The position numbers and the translations under genes were made by a program. Below the pieces are notes generated by a model that worked only from the letters and a program-made list of their open reading frames with translations, was not told the DNA's origin and did no database searches. Shown piece by piece: positions 1 through 64,000 of a DNA stretch of 64,000 bases. Origin of the DNA: Deuterostichococcus epilithicus (Eukaryota > Chlorophyta > Trebouxiophyceae > Prasiolales > Stichococcaceae); NCBI GenBank assembly GCA_033439295.1, contig JAVTLE010000017.1:992001-1056000 (forward strand), given 5' to 3'. Position 1 is the first letter of the stretch; every line of letters begins with the position of its first letter.

Positions 1-98
1 GTGCCGTCCAGAGGATGGGCAACCTGAAGCCCAGCTGAAAGCGGAGCCATCGAGTGCAGATGTGGAGCCATCTAATTGATTTCGGTCACCTCGCACAG
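1..98 (+). repeat. intron end with two echoes of the next exon start
   Basis: The motif agcggagccatcgag (about 40-54) and gtggagccatct (62-73) both resemble the start of the exon at 99 (agccatcgg). They look like decayed tandem copies of the acceptor region. Confidence 0.
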
Positions 99-3000
99 AG
101 CCATCGGCCGAAATCATCCGGGAACAGCACCAGGCAGACTCCGCGCCGGGCTTTGCGGACGACGGGCAGCCGGCGTCGGAGGAGCCTGCTGGCGCGGCGG
201 CGGCAGACGAGGAGGAAGAGGAGTCTGCAGACAGCCGGGAGGTGGGTCCTGACGGATCAATTGGGATTGCCAGCACCTGCATGACTCTCCTCGGCCTTTC
301 CAAGATGCAACAGTGTGGGCGAGGCTGAGATGTCTCGGGGTCCGCGCTCTGCCGAGAGGGCTGCGGCACACCATCGATCGCGCTCCCGGCGCAGCGGGCA
401 CACACACACCCAAGCAGCTTTTCCAGCTTGGACCTCCAGACAGGCCACCCGCCTGCTCATGCACACCGTGCCGCGCATGCCGATGCAGGCGCAGCTGTGG
501 GAGCAGCGGCAGGCGGCCGCAGTCAAGCCGCCCAGCGACACCGCGTCGGTGACTGGGACCAGTGGCTCTCGACTGGGCGGCGGCAGGGAGGAGGAGGCAG
601 GGGATGCAGCGCTGCCGCCAGTGGATGCAAGCCCCGTCACCGACCTGCTGAACGAGGTGCGCGGTTGCGCGTCTTCGTGGCCCGACCTTGCCGATGCAAA
701 TGGCGGCCCCTTGCTGGCATGCACCGGCAGGCGCAGTGCCTGTGTGCCGTGTCGCATGCATGAGACAGACGTCAGGACAAATCGCTGCATGCTGAGGATC
801 ATCACCTTTGGGTCCTGTTCTGCTGGGGTGTTTGGACCTTTGAACAGGCTTTCGCGACGCACCAAGGCTACACACAGGGCCAAGATCTGACGGCGACCCC
901 ACATGTGCAGGTGCTGGCGGCGCCGTCAGGCCAGCTGGGCGGCGGGGCAGGCGCAGAGCCCGCGGCAGATGAGATCGCCCGGCAGCGTGATGGCGAGCCG
1001 CTGGCGCCGTCAGACTCCGGCTGGGCGCGTGACGCCGCGGCGCAGGCGGCAGACGCGACATCAGACGCAGCTGCGCGGCTCGCTGACAGCACATCAGACG
1101 CGGCGGCGCGGATCGGCGACGCCACATCGGAAGCCGTGGCGCGGATCGGCGACGCCGCATCGGACGCGGCCGCCAGGGCGAAGTCCGCGGCGCAGGCCGC
1201 CGGCAGCAAGGTCGCCGACGCTGCGGGCGAGGCCGCGGACTCGGTGAGGGCTGCCACTGACGAGGCTGTGGAGTCTGCCGGTCGGACGGACGCGGCGGCG
1301 GAGCCTGCGAAGGTTGGGCGGCCGCGCCAGCCTGTCAGCGACGACCACCCAGTGGAGCCGGCGGCGGCGGAGATCGCACGGCAGCGCCGCGGCGAGCCTT
1401 TGCGCCGCCGGGCTCCGGCTGGGGGCGCAGGGCCGCGGCCCGCGCCGCCGACAAGGCATCCGATGCGGCGGCGCAGGCCACTGACGCGGCCGCCGACGCG
1501 GCGGCCAGCGCAGTCACCACAGCCAGAGCCGCTGGCAGCAAGGTGGCGGAGCAGACGGAGCAGGCTGCGGGTTCCACAAAGGCCGCAGCAGAGTCGGTCA
1601 GCCACGCGGTGGCGGACGCTGTCGGCAAGGCCGTTGACGGCGTCAAGTCTGCGAGTCAGGCGGCGGCAGACAGGGCTGCTGAGGCAGCGGGCGCCGCAAA
1701 GTCTGCCGGAAGCCAGGCGGTGGACGCTGCAAAGGCTGCCGGCTCGAAGGCAGCAGGCGCGGTCAAGTCCGCTGGCTCGAAGGCAGCTGACAAGGCCAAC
1801 GACGCAGCGGACTCCGCAAAGGCTGCCGGTGCAGAGGCAGCAGCCAATGCAGAGTCTGCTGGCCACCAGGCGGCCGGCGCAGCGGAGTCTGCAGTCAACC
1901 AAGTGGCTGGCGCGGCCAAGTCAGCCGGCGACCAGGTGGCGGCCGCAGCTGATGACGCTGCGGACACCACCAAGTCCGCTGGTCGCCAGGTGGTGGGCGC
2001 GGCAAAGTCAGCCGGTGATCAGGCGGCAGGCACGGCCGAGTCTGCCGTCTCCAAGGCGGCGGGCGCGGCCGATCCCGCGGAGGATGTGGCACACTCCGCG
2101 GGCCGCAAGGCGGCAGGCGCTGCCAGGTCCACTGGCGACGAGGCGGCCTCCGCAGCCGGCGACGCCGGCGACGCCGTCAAGTCCGCTGGCGCCGGGGACT
2201 CGATCGGCAGCGGCTGGGAGCATGTCGCGGGGCCGGAGGGCGCCGGCGGTAGCGATGGCGGCCCGGCGGCCGGAAGCAGGAAGCAGCACACCGCCGGCTG
2301 GGGCGACCTGGAGATGCCCTTCATCGAGGACTCCGAGCCCCGCGATGATGGTGAGTCATGCTGACGTGATGCACATGTGCATGTCGGGGTTTGAAACCCT
2401 TGGGGTAACGCTGCACAACGCGTGGTGCAAGGCAGGGCGGCGGTGCCTGTCCCAGATTCGGGAGAGCCAGACTGCATGCGAGTGCAACAGAGTCTGCATG
2501 CTGGCTGCTGCATGCAGATGCGGTGCGCGCACCTGTCCGTACCCCTGACACTCACCCAGCGCCAGAGGCGCGCCGTGGACGACCCTCGTGCTCCAACTAT
2601 CCTGACAGCAGTTGCTGTCACATGCCGCAGACGGCGAGGCGGATCGCGGCAGCGAGCAGCCCGCGCCGGCTCCGCCGCTGGATGGCGCTCCGGCCGCAGA
2701 CGATGACGAGGACGCCGCAGCGGATGCCGCGGCGATGCAGGCAGCGCTGTCACGCGGCGGCGGCGGCGGCGACGCGCCGGGCCGCGTCGCGGGCATCCTG
2801 GGCCTGGCAGAGGACCTGGACCCGCCAGCGCTGGTAAGGATTCTCGTAGGGTTTGGAGTTGGAGCCCGCACAGTGGCTTCACTGGTCTCGTTGTCAGTGC
2901 GGGCATCGCTGACAATCCTGACCCGCCCACGCTGGCGAGGGCTCGGCAATCAGGACTTCAGGTTCTACGACTTGCAGCTGGCGTGTTGCTGACTGCGCGC

Positions 3001-6000
3001 TGGCTGTGAGAGCGAATCCACAGCCAGGCAGCCTCCCTCGAGGCTGTCTGCGGGGCTGCAGGACGAGTCGGTGAAGCAGTGGCGGCAGCGATCCGATCCG
3101 TATGAGACAAGCATATGATGTTGGGGCCGGCACGCCGCAAACAAGGCATGCCAAGTGAAGGCGATGTGAACATATTTCTGAAACCTAAGCTGTGCACCAC
3201 TTCGAGCAGCTGTTGCAGCCAAGACAGCTTGGCCAGGTTAGGCCTCCCCAGAAACGACTGCCATTGCACTAGCAGGTGTGCAAGGCAGTGGTCTCCCAGG
3301 AGAGGCCCTTCTGTCCGAGCTGCCATTGCACTAGCAGGTGTGCAAGGCGGTGGACAGGGGGGTAGGGCACAGCCGAGGCGGGATGACTGTCACGCGCGCC
3401 TGAGTGAAGTTTCGAGCGAAAATTCGGCGAGGCACTAAGTGTCTTCGGTGTCCAGGTGCGCAAGGCGGTGGACCGGGGCGAGGACATGGGGGAGTGGGAT
3501 GACTACCATGCGCGCCTGATGCAGGCTGCTGCGGACGCGCACAGCTTCGAGGAGGCCCTGGAGCAGGCGCAGCGCTGGCACGAGGTGCGCTCCTGTTCTT
3601 TTGTCTCGAGAAGTGCTCGAACACTTCTGCGCACTTCCGGCCTCTCAAGATGGTCATGAACACTGCTGCACTGCAGTGCTTGCGCCACGCGCTTTCGTAC
3701 AGCAGGCCATCGGAGCACTGGTGCCCGGTTGCTGGCGACGGCGCGGCATCTGTGCAGGGGGATGCGCGGCAGCGGGAGGGACGAATTGCCGTGCCCGACC
3801 GCTGAGGAATCTTGAACCGTCCCTGTGTTTCAATTGTTCCAAGGAAAGCTGGTGATCCTGCCTGCAGGGGGAGGTGCGGCAGCGAGAGGGGGAGCTGGCT
3901 GCACAGGCACGCCACGCCCAAGACCTCCTCGGCGTCATCCACGAGCAGGCACGCTGCAGTTCAACTTCGAATGAAGCTGATACTCCGCACCGGAGGCTCG
4001 TCTCGAAACGTGAGCACACCGCAGCCGCTTCGAGGGGCGCCACGCCCGGGACCGGCACGGCTTCATCCAGGAGCGGGCGCGGCGCAATGTGCAGCACTTT
4101 GGTCGCTTCAAACTGCACATCATAACCGGTCCACATCGCGGGGCTGCCCAATGCCGAGCCCCATGCCCAGGACCTGCCCCGTTTCGTACGCGAGCAGGCG
4201 TGCTGCCGCTGCACAAATCTGCACCAGAGACTGCACAGCCGGACCGGGGCTCGCTGCCGCCGCCATCGAGCGCCGTAAATAGCATGGTGCCCCAGTCTGG
4301 ATGTGCAGTCATGGGCGCAGCTCAACGCAGCTGCAGCACCAGCAGGCACCTCCTTGCGCACACCCCCCAGCCATGCCAGGAAGGCGTCGAGAACATCAGC
4401 TGCTGTTGCCTCGTGCATGCTGTGCTGGGGCCTCAAGTGCGACTCAGACGCCATTCTGGTGCCACCGGCCTACAGCCCTACAGAATGAGCTATACGCAGT
4501 CCCGTGCACAGGGCCCGGCCCCGAGTCCGAAACGAATGTTCCGCGGTGGCTGCAGGCCGAGGAGCGGCGGGAGGCGGAGGCTGAGGCCCGGGCCGCTGCG
4601 GAGCGGCGGCTGGCCGCGGAACTCCAGCGGCAGGAGGCCGAGCTGCGGCGGCAGGCGGAGGACGCGGCCAACGAGGAGCGCGCCGCCCGTGCCCAGCAGC
4701 TGGACTCGGTGCGTGCGCACACCTCGAGGATCCCCCAATCACACGGCTCGCATGCACAGCGGTCTGGTCGCGCTGAGGAGGAGCACCGGCTGCGGAAGCA
4801 GCCGGCGGCGCTGCGCAGGCGTGACGCCGGCCCGGCAAAGCGTTGAAACTCCCCACCGACTGCTGCGCGTCTGGAGGCGCACACCTGAGCTGGGGCAGGC
4901 ACTGAGTGTGCGGACGCGCCCTGTCTTTCCGGCTCACAGTGCGCACCCGCCAAGCGCACGCTCTGCCGAGCAGCTGTGTGCCGCTGCGTGCATCCGCGGG
5001 TGCCGCTGCAGGGCGCTTGCCTCGCCGTTTCATAACCTGTGATGACACGCTTCTCCATCCAGCTTCCCGTCCGCTCTGCCCGCCGTGCCAGCTGCGGGCG
5101 CGGCCAGGGGCGCATGGGCGCGCCTCCAGCCGCCGCTTCGACGAGGCGTGCGCCCCTGACTGCCTTTGTCTTTTTGATCCGGATAACCATCCGCGTGATC
5201 ACTGCTTGCAGGTGCGGGTGCGGCTGGGCGCTCTGGGACGCGCCTTCAGCCGCCGCTCGGAGGAGGCGCGCACCAGCCATGAGGCGCACAGGGTGGTGCT
5301 TGCGGTGCTGGGCCTGCAGGACGCGCTCACCCAGGTGACAAGCCGTCTTCTCGGTGAAAAGATCAGTCAAGTCGAGAGAAACAGCCCCCATTTCGCAAGC
5401 GCGGCTCGGGGGCACGAGGCATCGAGGCTCAAAGGGTGACGCTGGCAGTGCTGGCCCGGCAGGGCGGCCGGGCGCGCCGCCAACGTGAAAGGTCCCTGAC
5501 AAAGACAGCTGCTGACAAGGACAGCTCCTGACAGGATTCCTGGTCTCGCAAGCGCGGCCGCGGGCATGCGGGCGTTCAGAGTTCTGCTCTGCGCCCGGGC
5601 GGCCATGCATGTGGTGGCCCCAGCAGCTGACGGCGAGTCCAGCACGTGTGAGCGTCCGCACGGCCGGCGAGGCGTGTCATGCTTCCGTCGCGTGCTGACA
5701 CATTGCTGTTTCAGGCGACGTGGCAGTCGGCTATGTAGACGACGACGCTTTGATCTGCAGCCAAAGCTTCGAACTCTGACGCCAATGCGCCAACAACTGG
5801 TGCCTCTGATGCACGGGCGGCGGTGTCAGGTGCAGCTGGGAGGATCCGGCGATGAGCGGCAAGTAACTCAAACTGATGACGTCGCCGATTAGACTGTCAA
5901 GGCCAGCGTCATTGATGGCGTGAGTGCGTGTTGATTGATCAGGGGTGGCCATTCCAGGCGAGGCTGGATGATCTGGCAGTCGGCGGGAAGGAGGTGCAAC

Positions 6001-7305: not shown

Positions 7306-7370
7306 ACCTCGGGCATGCTCCTGGGGCCCAGGCGGCTCCCGGGCTGCCGCGGCGAAGGGCAGACGGCTGG

Positions 7371-7420
7371 CGTTTCTGCAAGCGCACGCCGCGGCGCTCA
7401 GCTCGCTGCTGAGCAGTGCT
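7371..7420 (+). repeat. echo of the MIC60 stop exon in the 3' UTR
   Basis: The string ctgcaagcgcacgccgcgg then cgctcagctcgctgctgag resembles ctgcaggcgcacgcgacgg then cgctgacatcctccctgag at 7264-7301, 112 bp upstream. Confidence 0.
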
Positions 7421-8662: not shown

Positions 8663-8699
<37 letters not shown>

Positions 8700-12722: not shown

Positions 12723-15700
12723 TCACAGCAGCAGGTAGGCGGCGATGTCGGACAGTGACACGATGCCCTCCACGCGCCGCGTCTCCGGCTCGATGACGAT
12801 CAGCCGGCGCACGCCTGCGGGGTACCAGGGTTTTGCGGGCCTCACACCCTGTATATCCAGTGCGCGGTCGGTGCGCGGGCGGCACGGCATGCAAGCAGAC
12901 GCGTTTGCCTGCTCTGGCTGCTCGTTGAGAAACTCAAAAACTCGACCCACTGCGCGAGGCGCTCGACGATGGCGCGCACCGGGCGCGCACGCTGGTCGTG
13001 TGTGGATGTGCAGAGGCACTTTTGATGATATGATAGGTAACATGAAAGCAGGAAATCAGAAGGCCCACCAGGCTGCGCAAGGCGCTCGACGATGGCGCGC
13101 AGCGGGTCCCGCACGCTGGTGGTGTGGAAGCGCGGTTTGTGGCCCACGACGGCGCCGTCGCCGTCGGGCCTCGCCGAGGCGTCCGCGCCGTTGCGCCCCT
13201 GCGGCGGCAGGGTCGGACAATCGTCGGGTGGGGGACGGCTGGCACGACAGAAAGGGTCCTGCGCTGTGTGGTCGGGGCTGGGCAGACTGGTGCAGAGGCA
13301 CTGCTTGCGGAGCGGCCGTCGCCGCTGCGCGACGCGCCACCCACACCACTGATGCGCCGGTGCAGCAGCAGGGCATTGGGCAATGGCGCGGCGTCATGGG
13401 GCAGCCGCGAAGGTTGCGCCGGTGCATCCTACAATCTGTCGGCGAAGGGAAACGTACCGCGCCCAACCGCAGCGCCTGCCCGACCGTGACGTCCTCCCAC
13501 TGCAGCCGGTTGTACGCGTTTGCCGGCGCCAGCGCGGTGATGTCCGACCTCGCGTAGATGTCAACCAGGCCGCCCTGGTCGTCTAGCACCGGCAGCGCCG
13601 AGACCCCAGCCTGCAAGCACGAACATGTGAGGGTTACATGAACTGCGGGACGTCAGCCGGGTCGCTTGTCGGCAGGCTTGCCGCCAGCTGACACCACCTC
13701 GACAGCATTCTGGCGGCGACAGAAGGCAGCCGTCGAGCATTGCATTGGTATTCTAGGCTGCGCTGCACCACCTATTCTTGAGTAAGCAGCTTCTCAAGCA
13801 AAAAGGATCCGGCGAACCTGGAGCAGCAGCCCGAGCGCGCTGGTGAGCGGAGTCGACTCCGTGACGGTCGCCAGGCGCCGAACTATGCGCCGATCCCGCC
13901 GATCCTCTGCCGCATTTGACACCTGCAGCACAACCCTGGAATTAAGCTGCAGTAGTTGGTTCGTTCTTACATAGTGCGCATCAGACTGCCTGGGCTGCAA
14001 ATGGCAAAGCACATGATGTGGGAAGAAATCCCCAGCCGCCGGGCGGAGCAGTCGGCTGTATGCCCTTGATGCATGGTTTAATGCCTTGAAAGGGAGGAGG
14101 GGTTTGGAGCAGTGAGCCCGAAGGTGGGCACAGGATCATTGCCGGACGGCAGCGCAGCGACAGCGCAGCATCTGCAGACGCGGCTTGCACGCCCATGTTT
14201 GGGAAGACTGCCCCTGATGCTTCCGAAACCCTACCTCGCCATTCTCCAGCGGCCGGGAATCACTCCCCTGCCGCTCTGCCTGCTGCTGTTGCTGCTGCTG
14301 CAGCAGGTAGGGCGACTCGCTCGACCAGGTGCCCAGCTGCGTGGGGGCAGCGGCAGCAGGGAGGCGTCAGAGGCATGTGGGTTGTGAGCTGTCTGCTGCT
14401 CAGTCGGCCTCCTTCGAGTGGGCGAGCCCGCTGCTCGAAGTCGGCTGTGCAGGAGGTCAGAGGGGAGAGAGCGGTGACAGCATACACCAAATGTCAGAGA
14501 AGCAGCGCAGCATGCTTGCCCAGCGCCAGGGGCACCCCTCACCATCCGCCACACTCGCCGGCATGCGACTGGGCAGGTGCCTCAGCGGCGACACAGCTAG
14601 TCGCAGTCTGAGCAACGCACATGCTTTCATTATGAGCACCATGTTCCTCACCGGCAGGCGGCCGAGCGGCTGGCCCAGCAGCGGCAGCGAGGCGAGCGAC
14701 GCGCGGAAGTGGCGCAGCAGGCACGCTAGCACCCCGCCCATGGTGGCCACCGTCAGCAGGGTGCACACCTCCGCGCCGCCTGGGCGGGCATCGGGAAGCG
14801 TCAGCAGGCCAGCTGGTAGCGTTACAGGAGGTGCGAGAGCTGTGCAGCATGTTGCCAATTGTCGCGACCGTCAGCAGCGTGCACACCTCCGCGCCGCCTG
14901 CGCAGATACTGAGAAGCGTCAGCAGGCCATCTAGTGGCGTTAAAAGAATGTGAGAGCGCTGTGCAACGCGCCGCCAGTTTGTCGCCCCTGTCAGCAGGGT
15001 GCACACCTCCGCGCAGCCTGCACGGCATAACCCAGCTCGCTCAATCAATCCAGGGTGTCGGCGCCGTGTCACGCAGGTCGGGCCAGAGTGCGGTCCCCAA
15101 GGCCGCCGCCGTCTGCAGCCTGCACAGTTCCGCGCCGCCTGCAGTGGCCTTCCCAGCTTCAGGCAGTGTTGAGAATTCAGAGCTCTGCGCCGCACGCTGT
15201 CCATGGTGCCACCGTTAGCAGCGTGCATACGTCTGCACCACGAAAAAGGAAGAACTCTCATCTTGCGAGGCGCCAGCATGCCACCTGGTGGGCCTAGGTC
15301 ACCAGATCGGCACGCTCGTGGTTTGCAGCAGCCTGAGCTACATTCTGTCATTTAAGCTGCTGGCAGGGTCTTGTGCACTATGCCCACCCTGCGGCGTCCA
15401 GGTGCCAGTCTTCCACCCCATGGCTGGGCTCCTTATTTGCAGCCTCAGCCAACGGGCCGCTCCTGGAGCCTGGGCGCCACAGGGGGATGACGCGAGGGGC
15501 GGCCATAGCTCCTCCATCATGCAGCACTAGAAGCACTGCTGCACAAGTTTGTTCAGGGTAATCAACATCAATGACAGCAGCTGCCCTTCGTATCCAGCGC
15601 CTCGCCACAGACTACAGGCGCCATGGAGTAGCGCTGAGAATGGCAGCCGCAGCCCCAAGGGATTCGAACCTCAAAGCGAGGCCGCTGTACCAGAAATGAC

Positions 15701-18700
15701 ATGGACCCACCCAGAGGGTCGCCGCTGACGACGGGCGCCATGGAGCACCGTTCCGAGAACAGCCGCTGCACCAGCACCCCCAGGGGGTCCGCCGGCCGGA
15801 CATAGACCAGCGGCTTGGGCGACCGCCCGTCCGCCGCGGCGCCTGCAGCCAGGAAATTCATCGAGTTGGAGAACAGAACATGTGCGCCTCAACACCCCCC
15901 TGCGGATTTGCCTACCGCACATAGCACACCACCTTGGGCTCGGGCCCGTCCGCCGTGTGTTCTTGATGTCTATCGAAAATGGTTGTGACTGGGTGTGTGA
16001 AGGCGCAGTGGGGGGAATTTTGCGCCTCAACACCAGGGAGACACGAGCATGACAGTCCATGCAAACGATGTGCAGCTGCAACAAGTTCAGGGTGCTGCCG
16101 GCTCGGTGAGTTTGCCCGAGCCTTCGACGGCAGCCGCCCTGCCATCGCCCTCTCCTGCCGCCGCGGCCGCTGGTGAGCGGCAAACGCTCCGTGTGGCACT
16201 GAAGCTGCTGCGGCAGGGTTGGGACTCATGGCAGTTTCATGCGACTCACGGCTGAAGGTACCTTCGCGCAGCCCCTTGAGCGTGTGGCGGTCCATTTCCG
16301 CCTCGCTCAGCGGGTTGCCGCTGCTGGACACGCTTGTGCGCAGCGACTGCAGCACCTGCACATGTCACGGCACACAAACCTGTCAGGAAGATGACGCAGG
16401 AGCATCGACATAGAATTTCACGAGTTCCGCCTAGCTCAGCGGGTTGCTGCCGCTGGACACGCTCGTGAGCAGCGACTGCAGCACCTGCAGTTGGCAATGG
16501 ACAAGCCTTCAACATAATTCCAAAAGTCTCGGGCGTCAATGTCGCCAGCGCGCCGCTCCTTGCGGCCAGGTCACAGCAGAATGATGCATGATTTTCATGT
16601 GGACTGCCAGCAAAGGGTGGGGAGGCAGGTAACGCAGAGCGCTGCTGGAACTTGTTTGGAGCCGGCGGCATGGTTCAAGGGCGGACAGCCGCTAAGAGGC
16701 GAGAGTAGGGTTCAAGACACCGCACCTGAATGAAGTCTGAGGCTGAGATCATGCCGGGCACCGTTGCCGTCTCTGAGTCCCACAGCGCCGCTGACGCGAT
16801 GCCCTGCGTGGATGTTTGTCACTGATGAGTTTCAGAGCTGGGGGTCAGTGGTTGAGCCGATGGCTTAAGGAGTCGAGGTGGCAACAGCGAGGGTCCCAAG
16901 GCCCGAGCATGCTGCGAATCACAGGGATGGTGACCGGATGCAGCTGCTGTGTGTGGCGTCTGGACTCCGCGTGCTGACTTGCGCAGCGGAAGGCGCTGGC
17001 CTCGCCGGCCGGCAGCGCATGGACGGCCCCCGCCGGACGGGCAACGCGCCGTCGGGGAGCACCCCGTGCGATGTGGTGGCGCAATTTCATCCATTGCTAT
17101 CCTTCTGAAGGGTTCGCACATCAGTAGGCGTCAGGCCCACCTGCTCGTGCAGCGCGTGGAACGCCTGCCGGATGGGCAGCGCGCTGTCGAGCAGCACCAC
17201 CTTGCCGGACTCGGGTATCAGCTCGTAGGCGGTGTGCGTCAACAGGAAGTCCTTCACCTTCCGCCGCGTGTACTCGGGGTCGTCCGCCTGTGACAGGGGG
17301 AATGGAAAGGGTTTGGGCAACATAACAGAGTTCGGGCAACCAATACCTGAAGACTCATAGGCGGTGTGCATTGACAGAAAGTCCTTCGACCTGCCGCGTG
17401 GTTGCTCTGCCTGTGTCAAGGGTCATAAGAGGGGTTTGAGAAAGGGTCAGGGCTCGCAGGCGATGTGGAATGATGTACAGTCGTTGACCTTCTTGCCGTG
17501 AGCGCTCCAGGCTGTTCGCCTATACGCTGTGAAGATTTTCAAGATCTAGATTTTGGAGCCAGGCAGAGCATGGGCCGGAGGGTGAAGCATGAGCCGGCCG
17601 CAGGTGCGGTGATGCCGGCGCGCGTGGGGCTGATGCAGGAGGGTGAAGCCGGACAGTGAAGCATGAGCCGGCCACGACAGTGCCCCGCACGGCCGTAGCC
17701 GTGCCTGACATGACTGGACGCATGCCGCAGTCCAGATCACACTCCCGCGAGGCACATGCAGGTCGAGCGCGGCTTGCATGTCCACTGAGGACGAAGTGCA
17801 GCTGCTAGTCTGCTAATGGCTTGCTGCACAGGGCAGCCCTGATGCGCAGGGCCAGGCCGGCTTCAATTTCCGGGCTCCCCTCCGCCTATGGCACCTCCCC
17901 CACGGTAGTGCCAGGAGAAGCTCTGTGTTTGCAAAAGCCGCTTGCTGATCTCAAACGATGGCCATGTCCACCGCAACTAGTGCGCCCGGCTGCTGGTGGC
18001 CCACCGCCGGCGGCGACTCTGTCATGAGAGTGTGAAGGGGTCTGTCACAGAAAACAGTGCTTGGCCACTCTGCCAGTAGCAAGCGCCCCACCTGCACCAC
18101 GATTGGCGCGCCCGGCGGCTGGTGGCCCTCGGCCACCGGCGACTCCGCCATCGGCGTGTCCGCGTCCCACGCCGCGCCGCCGGAACTGGCCGGGGGCGGC
18201 GGGGGGCCGCTGCCGCTGCTGGCCATGGCGCCGCTGCCCTGCGGCGACAGCGGCGCCTGCTGCGCATGCGCCGCCGCGGCCGGCTGCGGTGGGTGCTGCG
18301 GGTGTGCCGTCGCCGCCGCCGCCCTGGGGTCACAGCGGTCCAAAGTCAGGCTGCAGGGGCAGTGGCGGTGCACAATATGAACCAGCTGCCGGGTGGCTAG
18401 GGGGCATTCCGCCATACCGTGGGGTCCTGGCTCCAGCTGTACTCTTCCAGGAAAGCTCTCCCACACAGCCGCCGCAGGGAGGCTGCTGCCCATAAGACCG
18501 CTGCACAACCAGCCAGTCGTGCACGTAGTGGCCACGAGTATCACTTTCTGGCGAAATCATCTAATGGACTTTCACCATGGAAATTCAGCAGGGTGTTCCG
18601 GAGGGCCGCACCCGGAGGCGGGGGGCTGCTGCCCATCAGGCCGCCGCACGAACAGCCAGTTGTTCACGTTCCCCAGCGGGTCGGGCATGTATGGCTGGCT

Positions 18701-25727: not shown

Positions 25728-26451
25728 TGGCGCCCGCAACAAACGTCAGGGGCAGTGCCGGGGTGACCTGTGTCGCTGCTGCGCTGAGCTGGTGACGCTC
25801 AAAATCAGCAGCGCCAGGGACGCCTGGATGGTGCCGGTGGTGCGCTGATGCCGTCGGCGGCTGAACATGCGTGCCTGCTGCACCTCGAGCGGACTAGAGC
25901 TTGCAGCAGCGACTCCTTGTACACTCTGTAGCGCTTATCGCAATGGAAAAGGAGACACATGCGAAGCATGTACGCAAGTGTTCAGGTCTCTGGTGGCTTG
26001 AAGGTCTGTGAACTCCTGGATCTTCACAGACCTGCAAGGGTATACTTCTTCTGGCGCCGCGGCATGCATATAATGGTGCCGTATCGGCAGTGAGCAGGGT
26101 AGTTCGTATCAGCTGGCGGTGCAGCCGGCATCGTGACGCCGCCTTCAGTCCAACACCATGTCTGCCAATAAAGAAACAACCTCACCTGCGTACCTGTCCC
26201 TTCGGAGTCCTGCTGGACAGCACATACCGTGACCGTGTGCATCTTCCGAGAAACATTCAGGGTCTAGTGGTGACGTTGCGGTGAGTCACCCCCTGTCCAC
26301 TTTCCCCACCAGGTGCAGGACGGTTGCGAGCTCAAGTTCGCAAGCACTGAACACACATCTGAAGCAAGGAGGGACCTGCACCTCGGTGCAGCTTTGCTGC
26401 AAACTGCTGTCGGCCCTCCTAACCAAGTTTGGGCAGGGTCGGGACAGCAAG
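25728..26451 (+). other. spacer between the tandem P450 genes
   Basis: Begins with the echoes of the stop exon. A short perfect inverted pair, gaaggtctgtgaa / ttcacagacct, lies at about 26000-26035 (aggtctgtgaactcctggatcttcacagacct, split here as arms with a 10-base loop) and could fold in the transcript. No gene seen. Confidence 0.
25735..25855 (+). repeat. echoes of the P450-A stop exon in its 3' UTR
   Basis: ctcaaaatcagcagcgcca then gacgcctggatggtgccg then tgcgctgatg repeats the order of the exon end (agcgtcaaggg, ggcgcctgggtgctgccg, cacgctgatgg at 25683-25730). A second, weaker copy lies between. Even the stop codon was carried. Confidence 0.
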
Positions 26452-37200: not shown

Positions 37201-40200
37201 GCACATGCGCGCCCTGCTCCCTGCCCGCTGCAGAGTCGGGTCCGGCAGGGTGGGTGAAGAACAGAAAGGTCACATTAGATTAGATTTGGTTTGATTTGGG
37301 TCTGGCGCATGCCCGCTTTCTGCACCCCTGCTTCAGGCAGTTGCTCCCGCCCGCAATGGGCGTCAGGCTGCCGGTTCTGATTTCGCCTCCAGCATCGGCC
37401 ATCACAATCCTGCTGCATGACGGCATCCTGGCATGCGAGCACACGGAGCACGTGTGCACGGAGCGCGAGGCGCTGACATCAGCAAACAGCAAAATCGAAA
37501 CGAAGTACTGGGCGATGGGTTTGAGCTGAGCACAGGACCGCATCCTGTGTGCGCGCAACCACACCAAGCGAGCGCGAGCAGAGGGGGGATGCGCTAACAT
37601 CGGTCTGTAGGGTTTGAAATGTCATGGTTCTAAACCCTGCCGCAGGACCGCATCCTGGCGCGCGACCACACCGAGTACGTGCGCGCGGAGCGGGATGTGC
37701 TGACTTCTGTCCGCCACCCCTACATCGTGATGCTGCACTGGTCCTTCCAGGTGTGCGTCTCGTCATGCTGCACTGGTCCGCTCAGGCGTGCGTCTGGACC
37801 CCTGCACCCAGGTCTGGCGCCCGTGCGCTAGGGCATCCAAACGCAGACACAAGCTGCAGTCGGCAGCTCCGCAACCCAACCCCGGCCAGTGGCCGGAGCT
37901 GGGTGGGATCTGAGCTTGGCCGGGCCTGCTCGGTGGGCCAGGCGTCACGCACCCGCTCTGGGCTGATAGCAGCCAGCCGCCTGGAGCTGCCCCCCCACTC
38001 CCGCGGGACCTGTGCCGGCTCCATACAGCACGGCTGGAATCGAAGCCTCGGGCCCCAGGGTGCTTCATCATCCTGAGTCCTGCCTTGTTGTCTGACACCG
38101 TGCTTTGGCTAGTCGCCAGATTTTTGCTCGTCAGAAAGTCTTTTTCCACCTTGTCTGCGCAGACGGCCGCCAAGCTGTACCTGGTGCTGGACTCCGTCAA
38201 CGGCCTCAATTGCGAACCCTAAACCTCAATTAAAAACCCTAACCCCTGGTTTCTGTCTGCGCAGACGGCCGCCAAGCTGTACCTGGTGCTGGACTTTGTC
38301 AACGGCGGCCACCTGTTCTTCAACCTCTACCGGTGCGTACCAAGCTTGGAGGCAGGAATCTCCGCCGTTGCTTCTGCACCTGCCTGCCTGTGCGGTCCGG
38401 CCACCTGCGCTGGCCAGCTTCACGATGCATGGTGCGGTGGTTTCAGGTCTAGGGTTTAGGATTTTCCAGGACGTGTGGCACCAGTGCCTGAGGCGCGGCA
38501 GAATCCGCAGGCTTCTGTGCTGACACCTGCTGTCATCATCTTCCCCCCCAGGGCGGGCATCTTCGACGAGGACCAGGCGCGTCTGTACGCGGCGGAGATC
38601 GTGGCTGCCATCGGGCACCTGCACTCCCTGGACATCGTGCACCGCGACCTCAAGCCGGTGAGACATCTTGAAATTTCCTTCAGGGACTGTATCCTGATGT
38701 TCCGATGGTTTCAGGTTCTGAAGTGTGGCACAGACTGCGGCCGGCGGCGCCTTTGGCCTCCTGCACTCGCTCGACATTGTGCACCGCGCCCTCATTCTCC
38801 TGCCGCCTGGTAGAGACTGTAGCAGCTGTTGGCCACCTGCACTGGCTGGACTTCATGCACTGCACCTGTAGTCAGCGCGCCCCCTCAGCATGCCACGGTG
38901 CCGCCAGCACTGTGGCCGCCAGCTGTCGCTGGTGATATCTTCTAAGAACTGGTCCGTCCCGTCCTCCGCTGGGGCTGGTTTAACCACCAGCGGCAGCCCT
39001 TGGCAAGGTGCTCTGAAGAGGAGGGTGCCAGGGCCGGCAGCCAATCGCGGCGGCGCTGCACTGAGGTCCGCTGGCCGCTCGGAGGCCCCATTCAGCGCGC
39101 CGCCGAGCCGCCCTGCCGCTGCGAGCACCCTGTTGCTGTCGCTGTTCGTCATCAGCATGGAGCCTCCGATTGGCCGCCGAGCACGTGCCCACTATGGCAG
39201 GCTTCCATGCAGGGTGTTTGTCTTGAGGCAAATTTGCGCCTGCAGTGCTGCTCCATCGCAGGAGAGCATGCTTGCTGAACGGCGCGGGCCACATCTGCAT
39301 CCCGGACCCTGGGCCGGCTGAGACTCTGACTCGCACAACATGTTGCACAATACGAAATAGACTGAGTACTGCTGCCGCCCTGCCGGAGGATGTGCATGCG
39401 CATCGTGTTCTGATGAAAGCGTTCATCTATTGATATGGGTAATATATGATGTTCGCAGGAGAACGTGCTGCTGGACAGCGAGGGCCACATCCGCATCACG
39501 GACTTCGGGCTGGCCAAGGCGGGCATGCGCGACGGCGAGCGCTCCAACTCGCTGATCGGCACCATGGAGTACATGGCGCCGGAGATCATCAACGCCTCCG
39601 GCCACAACAAGGCGTGCATTCGAGACCAGTTGACCGAATACTGGTCGTCATTCTGTCTCTGATACGACTGTGGGGCAGAGACAGGAGGATTGTACATATG
39701 TGCACTTGAACCTCCTTTTCTGCTCCGCGGTCGGTCGACTGTTGGGGCGGAGACAGAATGACTACAACTATTCAATTTAGCCTCTTGCTCTACTCCGCAG
39801 TCGATCGACTGGTGGAGCGTGGGCTTCCTGCCGTACGAGGGCGGAGACACAATGATCGGATTCCTCTTCTGAACCGCCCCTTCTGCCTCCGCAGTCGGTT
39901 GACTGGTGGAGTGTGGGCATCCTGCTGTACGAGATGCTGTGCGGGGTGACGCCCTTCCGGCAGAAGGACAAGGCGCGGCTGCGCCGCATGATTACCTGCG
40001 ACAAGCTCAAGTTCACCAAGAACGCTGATGGTGAGTCCTGCGGGCCTTGGAGGCTTCGAGGTCCTCCAACAACAGCCAGCTTGCTTTTCGGGACATCCTC
40101 CGAAATGCTTTGCATGGAACCACGCACAGCTACTGAGCCGCGTGACCACCTGTGGCAAGGCTCAAATCCACTCGGGCCGATGGTGCGGCACACGGAGACA

Positions 40201-43529: not shown

Positions 43530-46287
43530 ATGGCGGTCGCTAGCTTCACCACTTTTGCAGTTCTGCTGGTTGCTGCGACCGCAGCGTCGGCGACGAGCAC
43601 GCAGTGGCCTATTGACACAGCCAGCCTCAGCGCAGGTGCGGATGCAAATTCTGAAAACGGCGATCCTGCGTTTTGATGCTGCTGATTGTACAATCGGTTC
43701 GGGACCCGCGCACTTCGTCCAACTATACAGAGCCGCAACCAGACTTCGAATGCCGAACACTCAGGCTTCAAGGTGCCATTCAGCAGCATATATGACGCAG
43801 AACAGGTTGATCTGGCCATCCTGCAAGTCGCCAGATGCTCTGGCGTGCATTAAGCTAATCTTCTCCAGGATCGGAGCATGCTATGCTCTGTTTGACTCGC
43901 CTGAGGTCTCCGTCTCGTTGAATTTCCTGCAGTGGTTGGCGATCTGACAAAGACAGCGCAGGCAGGCAGCGATGTCGGGCGGCAGCTGCAACAAGCGGCT
44001 GTCAATTCTGCTGACGTCTTCGCCTCGCTGGGTGCGCAATGAGCAATGTTTGCACAAGAAGGCGCATAGGCAGTCCTCAAGCCTGCAACGCTGGCATGCC
44101 TCAGCCGCGTTGAACGATCGCTGCCCTCACTGACGGTGCGGCTGTCCAAAGTTGTGGTTTTTTCCGCATTTCTCCCAATGCATGCAAGCTTATGCCTGAC
44201 TCTTTCCTGCGCGCAGGGCCCATGCTACAGGGCCTGGCAGGCACCTCGGCAGCCTCCAATGCAGCGTCCAACACTGGCACCTCCGCAGCGGCGGCAGTCT
44301 CCAGCGCAGTCACCAGCCTCGGCCAGACGCTGGGCGCCAAAGTGACGTCTGTCGCCGATGTGCGCTTCCAATGCGGTTGCAACATAGATCGGGCATGGTT
44401 GGCGTTTGTCAGCTGATGCCGGCCTCGGAAGCGGCCTATTCCACTGTAGCCTTCGAGTGTCTGCAGACCTGCCAAGCGTGCACCACAGCAACCACGCCTC
44501 AGCGACGTGCAAGCAGAGCCATTGCTGCAGTACCTCGATGTCTGTTTTGCCCAGCGATCAGGTACCGAGAGCGCTAGTTATTCGCAACTTTGAAAGCGAC
44601 AGCAGGCTTTAGCATTCATGCTTTGCCGCAGGTCCAAGTGCAGCTGGAGCAGTTGCTCCTGCAATTCTGCTCTGCCGAGGAGTTCACGGCCCCTGAAGTG
44701 GTGCGCCGCCAAGATCCAAGACCCTAGCTATGCAGTCAAGACCTGTGGCAGTGGAGTGAAATTTGTCTTGCGGGCGCTGGCGGCAGTTTGTATATCTTCA
44801 GACTGGGCGCCAAAACATTGCCGACTGATCTTGCAAAGGTGCCGGCCAAATGGACGGGCAGCGGCGCGACCATCGCGCTGGTGCCGCACACCTGCCTCAT
44901 CTACCCCGAGAACAACACGCTTGCATGCTCCCCTGCACGGCTGGTGCTGTACAAGACCGCCGGTGGGTTTTCCTTCATATGGCTTCAAAAACCATGTGGA
45001 GCTGAGTTGCGAGGGTTGTGGTAGCTGCTTCAGGGCATGCGGCTCCAGTTGAGCCATGCAACCCGCTGTGTAGCTTTCCGCTGCGGCTGGCGCCACTGCA
45101 AGCACGTTCCGGCCAAGTCGTCACACCCCATGCAGCAGATATTTTCCACGATCGATGATACTAAAGGCTCCTGCACTTTCAGCAGCTTCGACCGACAGGA
45201 TGTGGGGTACGCAAAGCTGCTAAGGCTCTGTCGAGACGAGAAGCTCAGTGCAGGTCGTCATTGCAACGTTTACCTACAGGCAGCTACAACAAGGCATACA
45301 CGAGCGCTGCCGAGTGGACCGGCAAGGAGTGCAAGATTCAGGAGCAGCTGGGCAGCGGTAGCGTGCAGCTCATCGGCGGCGCCAACTACACGGTGCGCAT
45401 CTGCTTTGAAGACTTTCCGGACACCCTTGTGGATGAAACAAGTAGAAGCAGCGGCGTGCAGCTCACCAGCGACGCCAAGTTGATAACACGGTGCGCCTCC
45501 GCCTTGTCGACACCGCTTTATTTGCACACAGCTTGCCAGCTTCTCGCAAGCCAATGCAGGGAGTGGTGAAGCACCATAGCTTCGGTACGAGTCGTAAACC
45601 TCGCATTCGACTTTTGACTGTCCACGGCTTCTGCCATGCATTCGTGATGAAAATTACAGCGGGATCGCGGTGCCACTGATTTGTTGCACTGTTGCTGCCG
45701 TAACAACCGCGCCTAAGATTCTGCTTGCAGGTGACCATCCCGCAGCCAGTGCAGCTGAAGAGCCTGTGGACGCCCATCTACGCCAATGACGTCGCCGCGG
45801 CGCCGGCACCTGACGCCGGCTCCTCCGCCTCAGCAGCCGCCTCAGTGCGCTCACGCCTCCGGCCTCTGCTGTCACATGCATCCGTCTGCTCTGCCTGCCC
45901 ATGCACCGTGACCAAACTCAAAGTGATTGATGCATAGCCAATGGCACTGCATAGTACGCACACGTGGCTGCAGGCCCTTGTGTCACCACCCACCGTCAGC
46001 AGGTGATCGGCGCAGCAGGCGCCAGCAACTGCGCTATCCCTGTAACTGGATCTCGTGCACCAGCCGAATTTGCTTATTATCTGGCCTAGGTGTCCGATTC
46101 AAGCGGCAGCTCAAAGCCGACCAAGAAGCCAACTAAGAAGACATCGAAGCCGACGAAGGCATCCAAGAAGCCGTCGAAACCTACCAAGCTGACCAAGCGG
46201 CCAAGCAAGATGCCGACCAAGGCGTCGATGAGCGGCGGCAGCGTGTCCACCAATGCGGGCGGCAGCTCTGCCAACGCAGGCAGGTAG
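43530..46287 (+). CDS. secreted protein with Cys-containing domain and Lys/Pro/Thr repeat tail
   Basis: Exons 43530-43635, 43933-44031, 44217-44359, 44632-44697, 44839-44962, 45280-45428, 45731-45844, 46090-46287 give 332 residues in frame. The first 22 or so residues are a classic signal peptide (TFAVLLVAATAASA). A helical Ala/Ser/Gln-rich segment follows, then a globular part with several Cys, for example ALVPHTCLIYPENNTLACS and YTVRICFEDF. The last exon is a basic tail of SKPTKK/SKPTKASK-type repeats (46105-46215) ending in a Gly/Ser/Asn-rich stretch. I do not recognise the family; an extracellular or cell-wall protein is the best inference, with the tail perhaps binding acidic wall polymers or silica-like polyanions. 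The exon joining 44697 to 44839 is the least certain because another open frame crosses it. Confidence 0.
45441..45505 (+). repeat. echo of exon 45280-45428 (secreted-protein gene)
   Basis: agcagcggcgtgcagctcac then cagcgacgccaagttgataac then acggtgcgcctccgcctt resembles agcggtagcgtgcagctcat then cggcggcgccaactac then acggtgcgcatctgcttt at 45352-45406. Confidence 0.
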
Positions 46288-47825: not shown

Positions 47826-50800
47826 CTACCCGTGAGCGCGGCGCCAGGCCTTGGCCTGTGCCAGCCGCTTCTTCTTTGCGGCCTGCAGTTGCACCGATTG
47901 AGGGATTAGGGTCTGGCGAACGCAGAGGCTTAACTCAGCCGTTCTCGCCCGCATTGAACACTGTGCAGATTAACCAGCTGGCCAGGCACAAGTTTGAAAA
48001 GGTGAGCGGCCGCAGCCGCTGATGTAGTGCTGATGCTGCAGGGGGATCCGGTCACCATTGACCGGATTCGCCGCACAGCACAGCCGCTGCAGCAGCAGGC
48101 AGTGCGCGCCACGATTGCTGCTGCATTGACGCATGCCTGCTGACCCGCACACGCCTGTGGTCGATGTGCCCGCCGGCGCGGGCCGCGGCAGCCTGGTCCA
48201 CAGCGCGGTGCGCGATTCCAACCGGGGCTTGCACGCATGCCGCGATGTCGTGCAGCACCGCAGCTTGAGACCTCACATGTCCAATGCCAGTCAGAATGGC
48301 CGATCCGCCTGGCACGCCTGCTCTTCGGCTTCCGCCTTAGCATCCTCGTCGCGGCCGATGCGGGCGGCGCAGCTAAATGAAGATTGGTTGCCGATGCCAT
48401 ATCAAACCAATTGTTGATCACCTGGCGAGCTCGCTCTTCGGCTTCTGCTTTCGCATCCTCGTCGCGGCCGAGACGCGCGGCACGGCGCTCCTCTGCCTCC
48501 ACCCCCGCCCAGCCGACTTCCATGCTTCGGTCGTCCGCCGGCTCGTCCCGAAACCTGTGTCGAGTGCAGTCGAGACATTAACAACAAGTTTGAACAGTTT
48601 TGGCATTTCTCTGCCTCCGCGCCCGCTCAGCCCCACCTCCATGCCACAATCGCCAGCAGGCTCGTGACGAAATCTGGTTTCAGATGACATTGGAAAGTAA
48701 TACTGGGCTAGTAATATCACAACTCAATCTCACCTAGAGGGGTCGTAGCCAGTGATCGAGCGCAGCTCCACCTGCCAGTCCTCCTCCCCTCCGCCGGCGT
48801 CGCCGCCTTCCAGAAAGTCTTCAAGCAGCCCCTCGTCGTCTTCCTCCACTTCCTCTGCTTCCCGCCGCATCGCTGCCACCGCACCGCGTCCGCCGCCGCG
48901 GCCGCCTGCCTGCTGTGCTGTCCTGAAGGCCGCGATGCCCTGCTGCTGCTGCTGCTGCTGCTGCTGCCGCTGGCCTGCCTGCTGCGCAGTTCGAAACGCC
49001 GGCGCCCCTTGCTGCTGCCGCTGCGGCGCCTGCTGCGCCGCCTGCTGCGCTGTTCTGAAGCCCAGCTGCTGCTGCTGCCGCTGCCCTGGGGAGCCGGAAC
49101 CGCCGCCACCGCCGCTGCCGCCACAACCACCAGAGGGTGCGTCCCTGGCGGCCTTTGCCGCCAGCCGCGCCGCCGCGCCAGAGAAGCGCGGGCCCTCGGC
49201 GGCCGGTGCTGGGCTGCTGCTGCCGGTGCGTGTGGTCGGTCTTGCTGCCGGAGATGCGCACCTGGCGGTGCCGCCTGCCGGGAGGTTCGAGCGCACGGCT
49301 GCGGCAAGCGCATCATTCGCCTTCTGCCGCCCTGTGACGCCTGCGGACAAATCAAACAGTACACTGGTGTCCGGGAGGCCAGCACACCCATGAAGCTCAC
49401 GGGTTTGGGGGTGCAGAGACTCCGGAAGCATGCACCACACCACGGCAGATGCAGCTTGAAGGGGCAAGGAGCGCAGCTTTGGTTTCGTCCTGAGCCTCTC
49501 GCAGCCCGCAGTCACTGAGACTAGACCGAACCTCATCAGCGCGGCTTCGCCACTTGCGCCCCGACCAGGCATGCTCAAGACCAGCGAATCCACTTGCAGG
49601 TTGGACCCACAAGATGTTCATATGACAACCAGACCAGTACCTGCGGCGGCCAGCGCCACGGCGCTGCCGCGCATGGCGACGGCCTTTCTGCCGCCACCGC
49701 CGCCGGCGCCTCGCCGGAGGGCTGACTTGGCGGCCGCCGGCTTCAGCATCCCGCCCCGCAGCTGGCTGCGCGCCCTGCGCCAGGCGACCAGAGTCGGGGT
49801 GATCAGTTGCTACAAGCTGTTGTGCCAGTATTGCCAGGTCCTCGATGAGCTATCTTACCAAACCTATGCACAGGGGGCCATGATTACTGCAAACAACTGC
49901 CTGACGCCGTCTGCAGCTGTGGCGGATCAGCAGAAATCTGGTTTCCCGCCCGAAGTGTCTGGGACGCCGCCGCCCACGTCTCCTGTGCATGGGAGGCTGC
50001 ACCTTGCAGCCCAGCTAACTACAGCAGCAGCAAGCGACAGCTAGCACCAGGCCTCACACAGCTTGACAGCCAGCTCGAAGCTTTTGGCTTGTGAGCATTC
50101 GGCAACTGCTTTTCTTTGCCTCAGCTGGCGTGGCCGTCCCAACAGCGGCATGCGCCACATGCAAAGCCTGCGCCCGCCGGCGTCCCGGCCTTCCTTCTCA
50201 GCTCAGAGTCGCACGAGCAACCAGGATCGAGAAGGTAGGGTATGTTGGCCGCACGCCTTCCAAACCCTGGAGCCCGAACTGCATGCCCAGTACCTCGTCA
50301 CCTGGCTGCACATATCACCGATGTGACAGTGTGACATTGAGCGATGTCCGAGCCCTCCATGCCACTCTCACCTCTGTGCCGCCCCCTGTTGCGTCCGCGA
50401 CGGCCCTGCCGGCCGCCTGCCGCCGAGTGGTGACGCCGCTGACTGCTGCCGCGCCGCCACCGTGCTGCCCAGGCTTCCGGCTGAGGATGCGCCGCCGCTG
50501 CCGGGCAGGCTACGCATCTCCTGGCGGCGCGCCACCGCCGCTGCCAGCCCCGCTGTCGACCGCGCCGCCGGCTGCGAGGTGGCGGCCCCCGCCTGCTGCA
50601 GCCGGGGAGCAGCAAAGAGGTGAAGTTGCAGCTGCCAGCGGGGATGAAGTTTCAGAGGCGTGTCGGGCACCCGGCGCCGTGTCTGCTGCAGCACCACTAC
50701 TTGCCTAAGAACAAGCAGAAAACCTGCATCTAGAGATGCAGGCGAGCCAGCAGCAGCCAATGGGCGGTTGGCGCGACCTTGCAAACGTCACATGCAGCCA

Positions 50801-62145: not shown

Positions 62146-62687
62146 TTCATGCAGCACGTTTACAAGGCTGCAAGCGAACATGAAGATGAAACAACTTTGA
62201 GCAGAAACAACTTCGTTGCGCTTGCATTATGCGGTGAGCTGTGTAGAGGTTGCCATCCACTAGGTGCATGACCTGCCTTAGGCGCGATTGCAATTCATGA
62301 ATCAGTTTTCCGCTGCGGTGTCAGAGTGTTCCAAGGTATCGTTGTCAGATTAACAACATTCAAATTATGGAGCATGCTTCAAATCTGGCACATCTAGCAC
62401 TTTCTCCACACCGCCCATGAATCACCCCCTGAGCGGCAGACTTTGTTGCAGCCACCATGCAGCCGCAATACTGCCGTAACTCGACCATCTGAGGTTCAGC
62501 AGAAATTCTCCCGTCATTGTCAACCTCTCCACTCTCAGCCAATCCCACCATCGCCATCCAGCCTCCAGTGTCTCTCACCGGTGCATTCACGAATCCAAGA
62601 AATCCTTGCCGCCGCACCAATGAGGAAGTATTCGCTCGCCGCTGCCACCGCCGTCGGCTTTTCCTCACATGGCGTGTGCAGGCGCAA
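62146..62687. other. intergenic between convergent genes
   Basis: 542 bp, relatively AT-rich. May hold the true last exon of the Ala-rich gene if the donor at 61892 is used. No repeat or RNA gene seen. Confidence 0.
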
Positions 62688-63985
62688 TCACGACTCCAGG
62701 AACACCTTGCCGCCGCGACCGGGACGCTGCGATTCCTTGATGGCCTCGCGTGCTTTCTCCAGCGGGAGACTGGCACCTGCCGATTGGTTGCCGAGCCATC
62801 TGAGATGTGTCCTTTTCATGCATCTTTGACGAAGCAGGACCACTGGCGTCACGCATTTTCCACAGCAAAAGTCTAGCGCATGCGCCAGCCTCCAGCCTTC
62901 AATAAGTAAGGTTGCTGAACAAATGAGCGCATTTCGAGAAAACAAAGCAGCCGATCCCAACCCCTTCAGCAGGACGCAGGCGTAGCTGGGTCAGTGAGTA
63001 CCCTGATGAGGAGAATGCTATCGCGGATAATCTATTTTCCGACATTGTCTTTCAGAGCATCGCCAGCTGCCCATGCTCAACTTGCACAGCGGCTTCTGCT
63101 GGCTGCAGCAGCCGAGTCAAGCAGATATCCAACGCCGCTGCCAGACTTGCGCAGCTTGGTGTCATGGTCCGCCTTCTAGCATCACGCCGAAACTCAGTAG
63201 CTAAAGCATGACTCCTAGATACGACCCACCTGACAAGAGCAGAATGACCTTGCAGCCAAAGGCGTCCGCTGACGAATGGCCTGATAGCGGCGCTAGACAA
63301 CTATATCGAGGTGTCGTATGAACTTCTGGCACTGGCACCGTGACCATGTCCGCCAGCAGATGCCCATTGCTGGACCACGTCAGATAGCAGCGGTAAGTGA
63401 GCTCTCTCGAAGGTCTTACCTGACAGCGGCACCATGACCTTGTCCGCCAGCAACTGCTGCACGCGGTCCAGCTTCCGCTGCTTTCCCTCGGCGCCATCAG
63501 CATCCAGCCAGTTCGGCAGCATGAAGCCCTGCGGGGACGGAGACACCACAATCCCGGAGACGACTGGGGCGAACGACCCTTGATTGCAGGCCGCGGGCCA
63601 TGGGTCTGCCACCTTTCGCCACCCTCAGCGGCCAGCCAGCCCTTCAGCATGAAGCCCTGCGGGGTACGATGGCACCAAAGCCTAATGTGAGAAACGTAAA
63701 TGCCAAGTTGCAGATCATACTGCCCTCTGGACACACGGCAGGATTCCATGAGCTGCTGGTATCGCATAGTCGGGACAGCGTGACGAAGCACCCTGAATAC
63801 ACCACATCAGGCTCCTGAACTGAGCAGCCTTCGTCCCGGGAACTTGACCTGAAGTTGATCAGCAAACGTTGTCGCACCTCCAGGCGTTTGCCCTGCATCA
63901 GGTCCATGATCTTGATGTGGGCCACGTCCCCCGTCAGGGCGCCGTACGCATAGGTGGCGCCGCCCTTCCGCACCGAGTGCATTAC
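62688..63985 (-). CDS. zinc-type alcohol dehydrogenase-like MDR oxidoreductase (enoyl-CoA/quinone reductase), C-terminal part
   Basis: The last three exons of a medium-chain dehydrogenase/reductase: 63985-63878, 63528-63420, 62776-62688, all in phase. Sequence features are typical of the MDR C-terminal half: RKGGATYAYGALTGD (loss of Rossmann alcohol path, as in quinone/enoyl-CoA reductases), GFMLPNWL, a coiled Lys/Arg helix, then PLEKAREAI and the terminal RPGRGGKVFLE, matching the usual GKV(L/F)L end. The nucleotide-binding Rossmann motif would lie in exons right of the window. Mitochondrial trans-2-enoyl-CoA reductase or a quinone oxidoreductase are the most likely; I cannot choose. The gene is convergent with the Ala-rich gene. 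Confidence 0.
63305..63665 (-). repeat. echoes on both sides of MDR exon 63420-63528
   Basis: At 63605-63665 gccagcccttcagcatgaagc then cctgcggggta repeats gccagttcggcagcatgaagc then cctgcgggga (63506). At 63323-63366 ggcaccgtgaccatgtccgc repeats ggcaccatgaccttgtccgc (63428). Confidence 0.
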
Positions 63986-64000
63986 CTGCGGCGTCAGATT

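Follow-up and report, generated by a model that had tools for sequence, protein, structure and literature searches.

In the potato RdRp gene, a tandem duplication across an intron-exon boundary made a new intron in a single event (Ma, Lan and Niu 2016, PMC4974935), and in the model of Rogers, reviewed alongside internal gene duplication, introns are gained by duplication of an exon segment with AGGT (PMC3443670). Breaks with protruding ends lead to small tandem duplications in mammalian cells (PMC8355091; PMC5730883), such duplications are described as the commonest human insertions of <100 bp (PMC8355091), and, according to the summary in PMC7407515, some rice insertions of 10-1000 bp are duplications, whether tandem, partly tandem or non-tandem but nearby; for all of these sources, statements made here refer to selected passages. 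Here, we describe a 64-kb stretch of DNA from the green alga Deuterostichococcus epilithicus (contig JAVTLE010000017.1, positions 992,001 to 1,056,000; G+C 62%; hereafter the window) in which degenerate copies of exon ends lie in the introns that flank those same exons. Such a copy is termed an echo, and the distance between the two copies is termed the lag.

The geometry of the potato case, with the 3' part of an intron and the 5' part of the next exon in tandem (PMC4974935), recurs in the window. In contrast to the single potato event, ~30 decayed events are present in 64 kb, they affect both exon starts and exon ends, and the introns concerned are longer, with none shown to be new. The density, the involvement of both exon sides, the decay series and the sharp edges of the copies are new relative to the potato case. 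Local tandem duplication within genes is shared with the Rogers model (PMC3443670). The signature of that model, in which the end of exon A resembles the intron end and the intron start resembles the start of exon B, was shown by 2 of the 100 introns that measure ≥100 bp, and these two lie in an array of echoes at 14.7 kb. Given that this classical signature of intron gain is absent outside the echo array, the process observed here is one that lengthens introns. A first-pass annotation of the window had proposed recurrent local direct duplication at exon ends with graded decay, creating introns in the manner of the AGGT model; the duplication and its decay agree with the present data, and the creation of introns is not supported by them.

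Break-associated duplications resemble the echoes in being short, direct and local, but have no tie to exon ends in the passages covered (PMC8355091, PMC5730883, PMC7407515). Introners, as described in the part of PMC9860276 considered, are likewise short intron-associated DNA known in algae; by contrast, the echoes form no shared family within the window, each matching its own exon. Among the literature matches listed, titles and abstract openings revealed no alga with exon copies pervading its introns, subscription journals being mostly outside the scope. Partial exon copies in introns may be mentioned in the Chlorella variabilis genome paper.

The existence of echoes was established independently of gene models by comparison of the window with itself. 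Self-BLAST returned 30 direct pairs separated by <3 kb (of which two fall within the coding repeat at 1-2.2 kb), nine longer-range direct pairs, all between P450 paralogues, and one inverted match, a 36-bp palindrome. Ungapped direct matches peaked at lags of 100-140 bp and numbered 42 in the window (coding repeats included) versus 8 in 137 kb of seven prokaryote loci. Ungapped inverted matches beyond 20 bp amounted to 0 or 1 per 20-bp bin, and a scan of every second lag in two block-shuffled sequences gave 1 match in total.

Gene models were obtained with a small self-trained, home-made gene finder, which yielded 22 models with 119 introns and some small errors. At a score of ≥40, 39 of 238 exon ends matched their own flanking intron, a figure that may hold events counted twice because some predicted exons are themselves echoes. 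At the same score, matches were observed for 4 of 9,520 sampled flanks of other genes, for 1 of 1,968 comparisons with other introns of the same gene and for 1 of 238 own flanks in inverted orientation, such that the direct orientation far exceeded the inverted control. Lowering the threshold to 30 gave 50 of 238 for own flanks against 30 of 9,520 for flanks of other genes. The opposite intron of the same exon was matched by 11 of 237 ends; eight of these trace to predicted exons that themselves belong to echoes or arrays, two to exons of <100 bp, and one to an artefact of slicing at the edge of the window. A comparison of exons with their own introns, controlled by other introns, had been suggested in the first-pass annotation, and its core observation, that copies of exon ends lie in the neighboring introns, emerges intact. 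The same is true of its near-intact example at 38152-38210, where positions 38152-38204 match 38254-38306 at 51 of 53 bases.

An initial listing of 45 matches, sought in direct orientation only, was reduced by curation to 30 echoes, of which 15 precede an exon start and the other 15 follow an exon end. The 15 matches dropped were two in the coding repeat at 1-2.3 kb, eleven in which the predicted exon is an echo or a member of an echo pair, one whose lag was 35, and one with a lag of 221 that involves the first exon of the gene at 52.6-54.6 kb. Lags of 94-147 bp were observed for 27 of the 30 curated echoes, in line with the spacing noted in the first pass. The exon part of the presumed duplicated unit spans 23-82 bp. 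For each of the 27 events with a lag of <170, the intron part of the unit measures at least 53 bp, a value computed as the lag minus the aligned exon part and therefore possibly inflated by decay of the latter.

Echoes are unevenly distributed among the genes (permutation p = 0.001). Once doubtful predicted exons were excluded, 29 of 214 usable ends carried an echo, in 6 of 16 multi-exon models: 6/22 ends in a Mic60-like gene, 8/26 in an AMPK-like gene, 10/30 in a protein-kinase gene, 2/16 in an SPT2-like gene, 2/4 in the last gene and 1/14 in one further gene. Echoes therefore sit mostly in three conserved genes. The remaining ten models had none at a score of 40, including 0 of 42 ends of two P450 genes; sub-threshold matches in or beside P450 exons occur at 25683 (lag 121) and 28518 (lag 116). 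The earlier statement that nearly every gene is affected is thus not confirmed. Similarly, the description of introns as made of such copies is too strong, given that the curated echo blocks comprise 1,716 of 36,801 intron bases (∼5%, with extra array copies uncounted). Intron lengthening, also proposed earlier, is supported in that echo-bearing introns have a median length of 427 (n = 18) against 291 for echo-less introns (n = 82; p = 0.0008), a difference that is weakened because longer introns give echoes more room to be found.

Multi-copy arrays, as anticipated in the first pass, are located at 14.74-15.14, 36.25-36.59, 39.7-39.93 and 40.59-41.13 kb. Three arrays (14.7, 36.3 and 40.6-41.1 kb) repeat the spacer as well, the one at 39.7 kb does so in part, and a repeated spacer was read by eye at 36.9 kb. 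Overall, spacer homology at p ≤ 0.02 was detected in 9 of 33 rows tested, where 0.7 were expected, and the other 24 had no detectable homology. A unit spanning an intron end together with an exon start is visible at 39746-39933, 14736-15142 and 40589-41131, and not in most other echoes. Comparison of the spacers with the window revealed no repeated element family (best non-array match 19 bp, E = 0.002). The edges of the echo blocks lie close to splice sites, at -3 to -13 for 10 of 15 acceptors and within -16 to +16 for 15 of 15 donors. Breakpoints set by exon midpoints or nucleosomes were considered and are not claimed, the intron part of ≥53 bp being the firmer limit. The spacer at 38205-38253, which separates the echo of highest identity from its exon, contains telomere-like AACCCTAAACC and AAAACCCTAACCCC. 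Two 35-bp copies (86%) lie across the end of exon 37646-37750, at 37725-37795, a duplication shorter than the others.

The decay of the echoes was assessed by codon position in 32 matches (a set that differs slightly from the curated 30), with 1,738 aligned exon bases. Mismatch frequencies between echo and exon were 0.139, 0.135 and 0.214 at positions 1, 2 and 3, respectively, which is the pattern of an unconstrained copy beside an exon whose own changes fall mainly at third positions. The 65 gaps found at a lenient gap cost were mostly not multiples of three. The 18 of 30 echoes usable without gaps contained 1 stop (2.6 expected), 40 synonymous differences (26 expected) and 86 replacements (102 expected), and the synonymous excess is put down to changes in the exon itself. 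Thus, echoes decay as neutral DNA. In-frame coding duplication was ruled out, given this neutral codon-phase pattern and lags that fall into classes 0, 1 and 2 modulo 3 in 8, 10 and 12 cases.

Acceptor and donor signals differ in their retention (Fisher p = 0.02). Of 15 acceptor echoes, 12 retain the AG, a number compatible with neutral decay (p = 0.36, with an assumed retention of 0.72), whereas 4 of 13 donor echoes retain GT or GC (p = 0.002), two of the 15 downstream events being last exons. The latter result is suggestive only, because the donor position was extrapolated in 6 of the 13; it suggests that surplus donors may be selected away. In the 22 bases before the acceptor, the pyrimidine fraction was 0.606 both for echoes and for real acceptors (n = 15), compared with 0.504 for intronic CAG controls (n = 771; p = 0.0005). 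Given that the echo tract is as pyrimidine-rich as the real one, the tract was probably duplicated along with the exon start. A spliced messenger RNA template is unlikely, since copying took in the AG and, for several echoes, additional bases of the intron.

The reading that we prefer, at about even confidence, is that the echoes remain from short, local, direct duplications that break repair repeatedly produced across exon ends and that were filtered by splicing and kept visible by exon constraint. We infer an origin in staggered breaks or paired nicks, in which both overhangs would be filled in before end joining, sometimes with filler or partial copying. The resulting direct, local unit would comprise ∼23-82 bp of exon and at least 53 bp of intron, and some units would later have expanded into arrays. 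Filler capture would suit the telomere-like spacer described above, a single case that is only suggestive. The extra copy would be hidden by splicing, and its survival would require that ∼50 bp of intron still lie between the copies, a filter that may be the cause of the 53-bp floor; loss of the surplus donor was probably also needed. The surplus copy would then decay as neutral DNA and slowly be lost, remaining recognizable thanks to the constraint on its exon partner, whereas the intron parts of the duplication would have diverged ∼3-4 times faster or been replaced. The outcome would be longer introns, not new introns.

A number of results weigh against this reading. Clean duplication was simulated with the observed block identity and with equal rates for echo and intron; the mean of the simulated medians put the predicted reach of homology within the intron at ∼65 bp, versus an observed mean of 4 bp. 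This edge test rejected clean neutral tandem duplication in 24 of 27 events (P ≤ 0.05; Fisher 4e-26). With an intron rate 3 or 4 times the echo rate, 8 or 7 of 27 were still rejected, and 7 of 27 at 10 times, such that a 3-10-fold faster intron leaves 7-8 events unexplained. A census of pairs, in which four low-complexity stretches were excluded and eight predicted exons were counted as intron because they are echoes, gave 57 merged pairs (37 exon-intron, 3 exon-intergenic, 4 exon-exon and 13 intron-intron). The intron-intron pairs were read as 11 echo-to-echo pairs within arrays, one (3258) that overlaps an echo and one (17574, lag 74) free of exon. Uniform duplication, simulated with uniform ages, the observed lags and, again, equal rates for echo and intron, should have given ∼2.0 times as many detectable intron-only pairs as exon-end pairs, and approximately one was seen; the exon-end bias therefore exceeds that produced by ascertainment alone in the simulation. 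Whole-unit duplication including the intron part, seen in the arrays, is undetected in the two-copy echoes of highest identity (96, 92 and 92%), all three of which lack detectable spacer homology. Unit edges are blurred in decayed copies, with no unambiguous break-repair junction readable, and the narrow lag range of 94-147 bp is not derived from the break-repair model; the size of the intron part may also be inflated, as noted. In 6 of 13 donor echoes the alignment ends 3-11 bases short of the donor, the full acceptor score of echoes (3.1) falls between that of real acceptors (5.8) and the intronic control (1.9), and the lone inverted own-flank match, between the donor end of exon 41067-41218 and its downstream intron, scores 55. 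The sharp edges and the missing intron-only copies would follow either from fast intron turnover, as the preferred reading supposes, or from copying limited to exon ends. They weigh against the proposal that neutral tandem duplication is uniform everywhere and that the exon-end cases are simply those that stay visible, with neither bias nor filler. Exon constraint does slow divergence, echoes are concentrated in genes whose proteins are conserved and do not reach the threshold in the P450 genes, and some arrays are clean, all as pure ascertainment would have it; given the shortage of intron-only pairs and the edge test, the latter much weakened if introns evolve 3-4 times faster, we regard this explanation as rather unlikely.

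Exon-limited copying would instead place a copy that reaches as far as the splice site 50-90 bp into the intron, the spacer then being the old single-copy intron end, with short-range template switching or RNA-templated repair as candidate routes. Exon ends would thus be preferentially copied in direct orientation into the adjoining intron, with intron sequence largely ignored, and introns would accrete exon-derived pieces. Block edges near splice sites, the 24 of 33 spacers without detectable homology (the three most similar pairs among them) and the near absence of intron-only copies are consistent with such a route. However, capture of free fragments should yield both orientations, and the 39 direct matches stand against one inverted; array spacers are homologous; and the AG, often with some intron bases, and the pyrimidine richness are shared, which indicates an unspliced template. 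Both the route and the accretion that it implies are accordingly judged unlikely. Conversion of old echoes by their exons while the spacers drift would account for edges at splice sites and for high block identity beside unrelated spacers, but partial conversion tracts should cluster the mismatches, and clustering was found in 0 of 29 blocks at p < 0.05 (Fisher 0.96), which makes this explanation improbable. Retention of echoes for a function as decoy splice sites or poison exons might be argued from the intact AG and the retained pyrimidine richness of acceptor echoes; given that the AG count lies within neutral decay, that donor dinucleotides are mostly lost and that codon phase and stops carry no coding signal, this appears highly improbable. 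An assembly artefact, to which the single N in the window (position 36146) might point, has next to no probability, since divergence of 4-23% between copies, through both substitutions and indels, is found at many loci.

If the density of echoes in the window were to hold genome-wide, a single genome would present a graded series, from a 96% copy to the barely visible, in which intron lengthening by local duplication and the tolerance of splicing toward a duplicated exon end would be directly measurable. The splice-site edges and the missing intron-only copies provide concrete tests between duplication targeted to exon ends and unusually fast intron turnover. The coordinates of the individual features are collected in the table.

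Table. Echoes, arrays and related repeats in the window (lag in bp; percentages are identities)
Feature	Position	Strand	Lag, identity and remarks
Echo of start of exon 3456-3584 (Mic60-like gene)	3335..3401	+	lag 118, 82%
Two 34-bp copies 62 bp apart	3258..3353	+	97%; second copy overlaps echo 3335-3401
Echo of start of exon 3868-3948	3753..3780	+	lag 110, 89%
Echo of end of exon 3868-3948	4038..4081	+	lag 128, 80%
Echo of start of exon 5212-5334	5089..5154	+	lag 120, 77%
Echo of end of exon 5212-5334	5412..5465	+	lag 142, 80%; spacer also homologous, many gaps
Echo of start of exon 6064-6168	5940..5992	+	lag 121, 83%
Echo past last predicted exon 7117-7302	7366..7397	+	lag 111, 84%
Echo of end of exon 13069-13198 (AMPK-beta-gamma-like gene)	12949..13002	-	lag 124, 92%; spacer without detectable relation
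Array of ~four units, start of exon 14652-14779 plus intron part	14736..15142	-	units 118-121 bp apart; homologous spacers (clean tandem duplication)
Echo of end of exon 15711-15842	15595..15657	-	lag 116, 80%
Echo of start of exon 16262-16355	16425..16489	-	lag 129, 92%; spacer without detectable relation
Echo of start region of exon 17141-17287	17352..17394	-	lag 130, 86%
Echo of end of exon 17141-17287	17013..17062	-	lag 136, 82%
Echo of end of exon 18092-18350	17969..18033	-	lag 126, 77%
Echo of end of exon 18612-18749	18477..18526	-	lag 143, 84%
Echo pair with exon 35788-35916	35687..35724	+	lag 107, 86%; unsure which of the two predicted exons is genuine
Two echoes of end of exon 36131-36335 (protein-kinase gene)	36395..36590	+	lags 141, 264; spacers homologous with gaps
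Echo array upstream of and into exon 37103-37162	36913..37124	+	lags 100, 89; spacers homologous by eye
Echo of start of exon 37646-37750	37406..37480	+	lag 227, 80%; AG lost
Echo of start of exon 38265-38332, most similar of all	38152..38204	+	lag 102, 96%; spacer 38205-38253 without detectable relation, telomere-like
Echo of end of exon 38552-38657	38749..38794	+	lag 142, 83%
Echo of start of exon 39459-39611	39256..39317	+	lag 197, 82%
Two 94-bp units (39746-39839, 39840-39933) across acceptor of exon 39895-40030	39746..39933	+	both ends match, ~30 bp of intron in the middle, ahead of the acceptor, does not
Four-copy array of start of exon 41067-41218	40589..41131	+	lags 164, 162, 147; spacers partly homologous
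Echo of end of exon 41067-41218	41480..41548	+	lag 329, 80%
Echo of end of exon 45280-45392	45457..45504	+	lag 96, 85%
Echo of end of exon 48422-48554 (SPT2-like gene)	48308..48368	-	lag 113, 84%
Echo of start of exon 48422-48554 (SPT2-like gene)	48610..48676	-	lag 119, 78%
Echo past last predicted exon 62691-62776	62580..62615	-	lag 101, 83%
Echo of start of exon 63420-63528	63616..63676	-	lag 128, 80%
Echo of end of exon 63420-63528	63326..63358	-	lag 94, 85%

Pfam analysis of submitted pieces of the window identified Mitofilin/Mic60, an AMPK glycogen-binding module and CBS domains in one gene, two P450s, an SPT2 chromatin protein, a family-90 glycosyltransferase and a protein kinase with its C-terminal domain, which we read as an AGC-type kinase. 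The set of genes, the base composition and a telomere-like CCCTAAA are what a green alga would be expected to show. In one scan of a contig collection, the kinase protein gave 7 distant prokaryote matches and no algal relative; similarly, no algal relative was found among viral contigs by protein scan or by degenerate pattern. Scans of the window against Rfam (gathering threshold) and for transfer RNAs gave 0 matches.

The gene at 12726-19770 fuses the AMPK glycogen-binding module with CBS domains, an arrangement typical of green plants. The N-terminal part of the Mic60-like gene contains alanine-rich coding repeats of ∼33 bp at 1000-2300. Two tandem P450 genes, with several exon lengths conserved and matching stretches 68-91% alike, occupy 21779-32681. 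These paralogues were considered as a clock for intron divergence and proved too old, BLAST at E 1e-3 having matched exon-like stretches only. An intron of the second P450 gene contains a perfect GCATG repeat of 13 units at 27517-27582.

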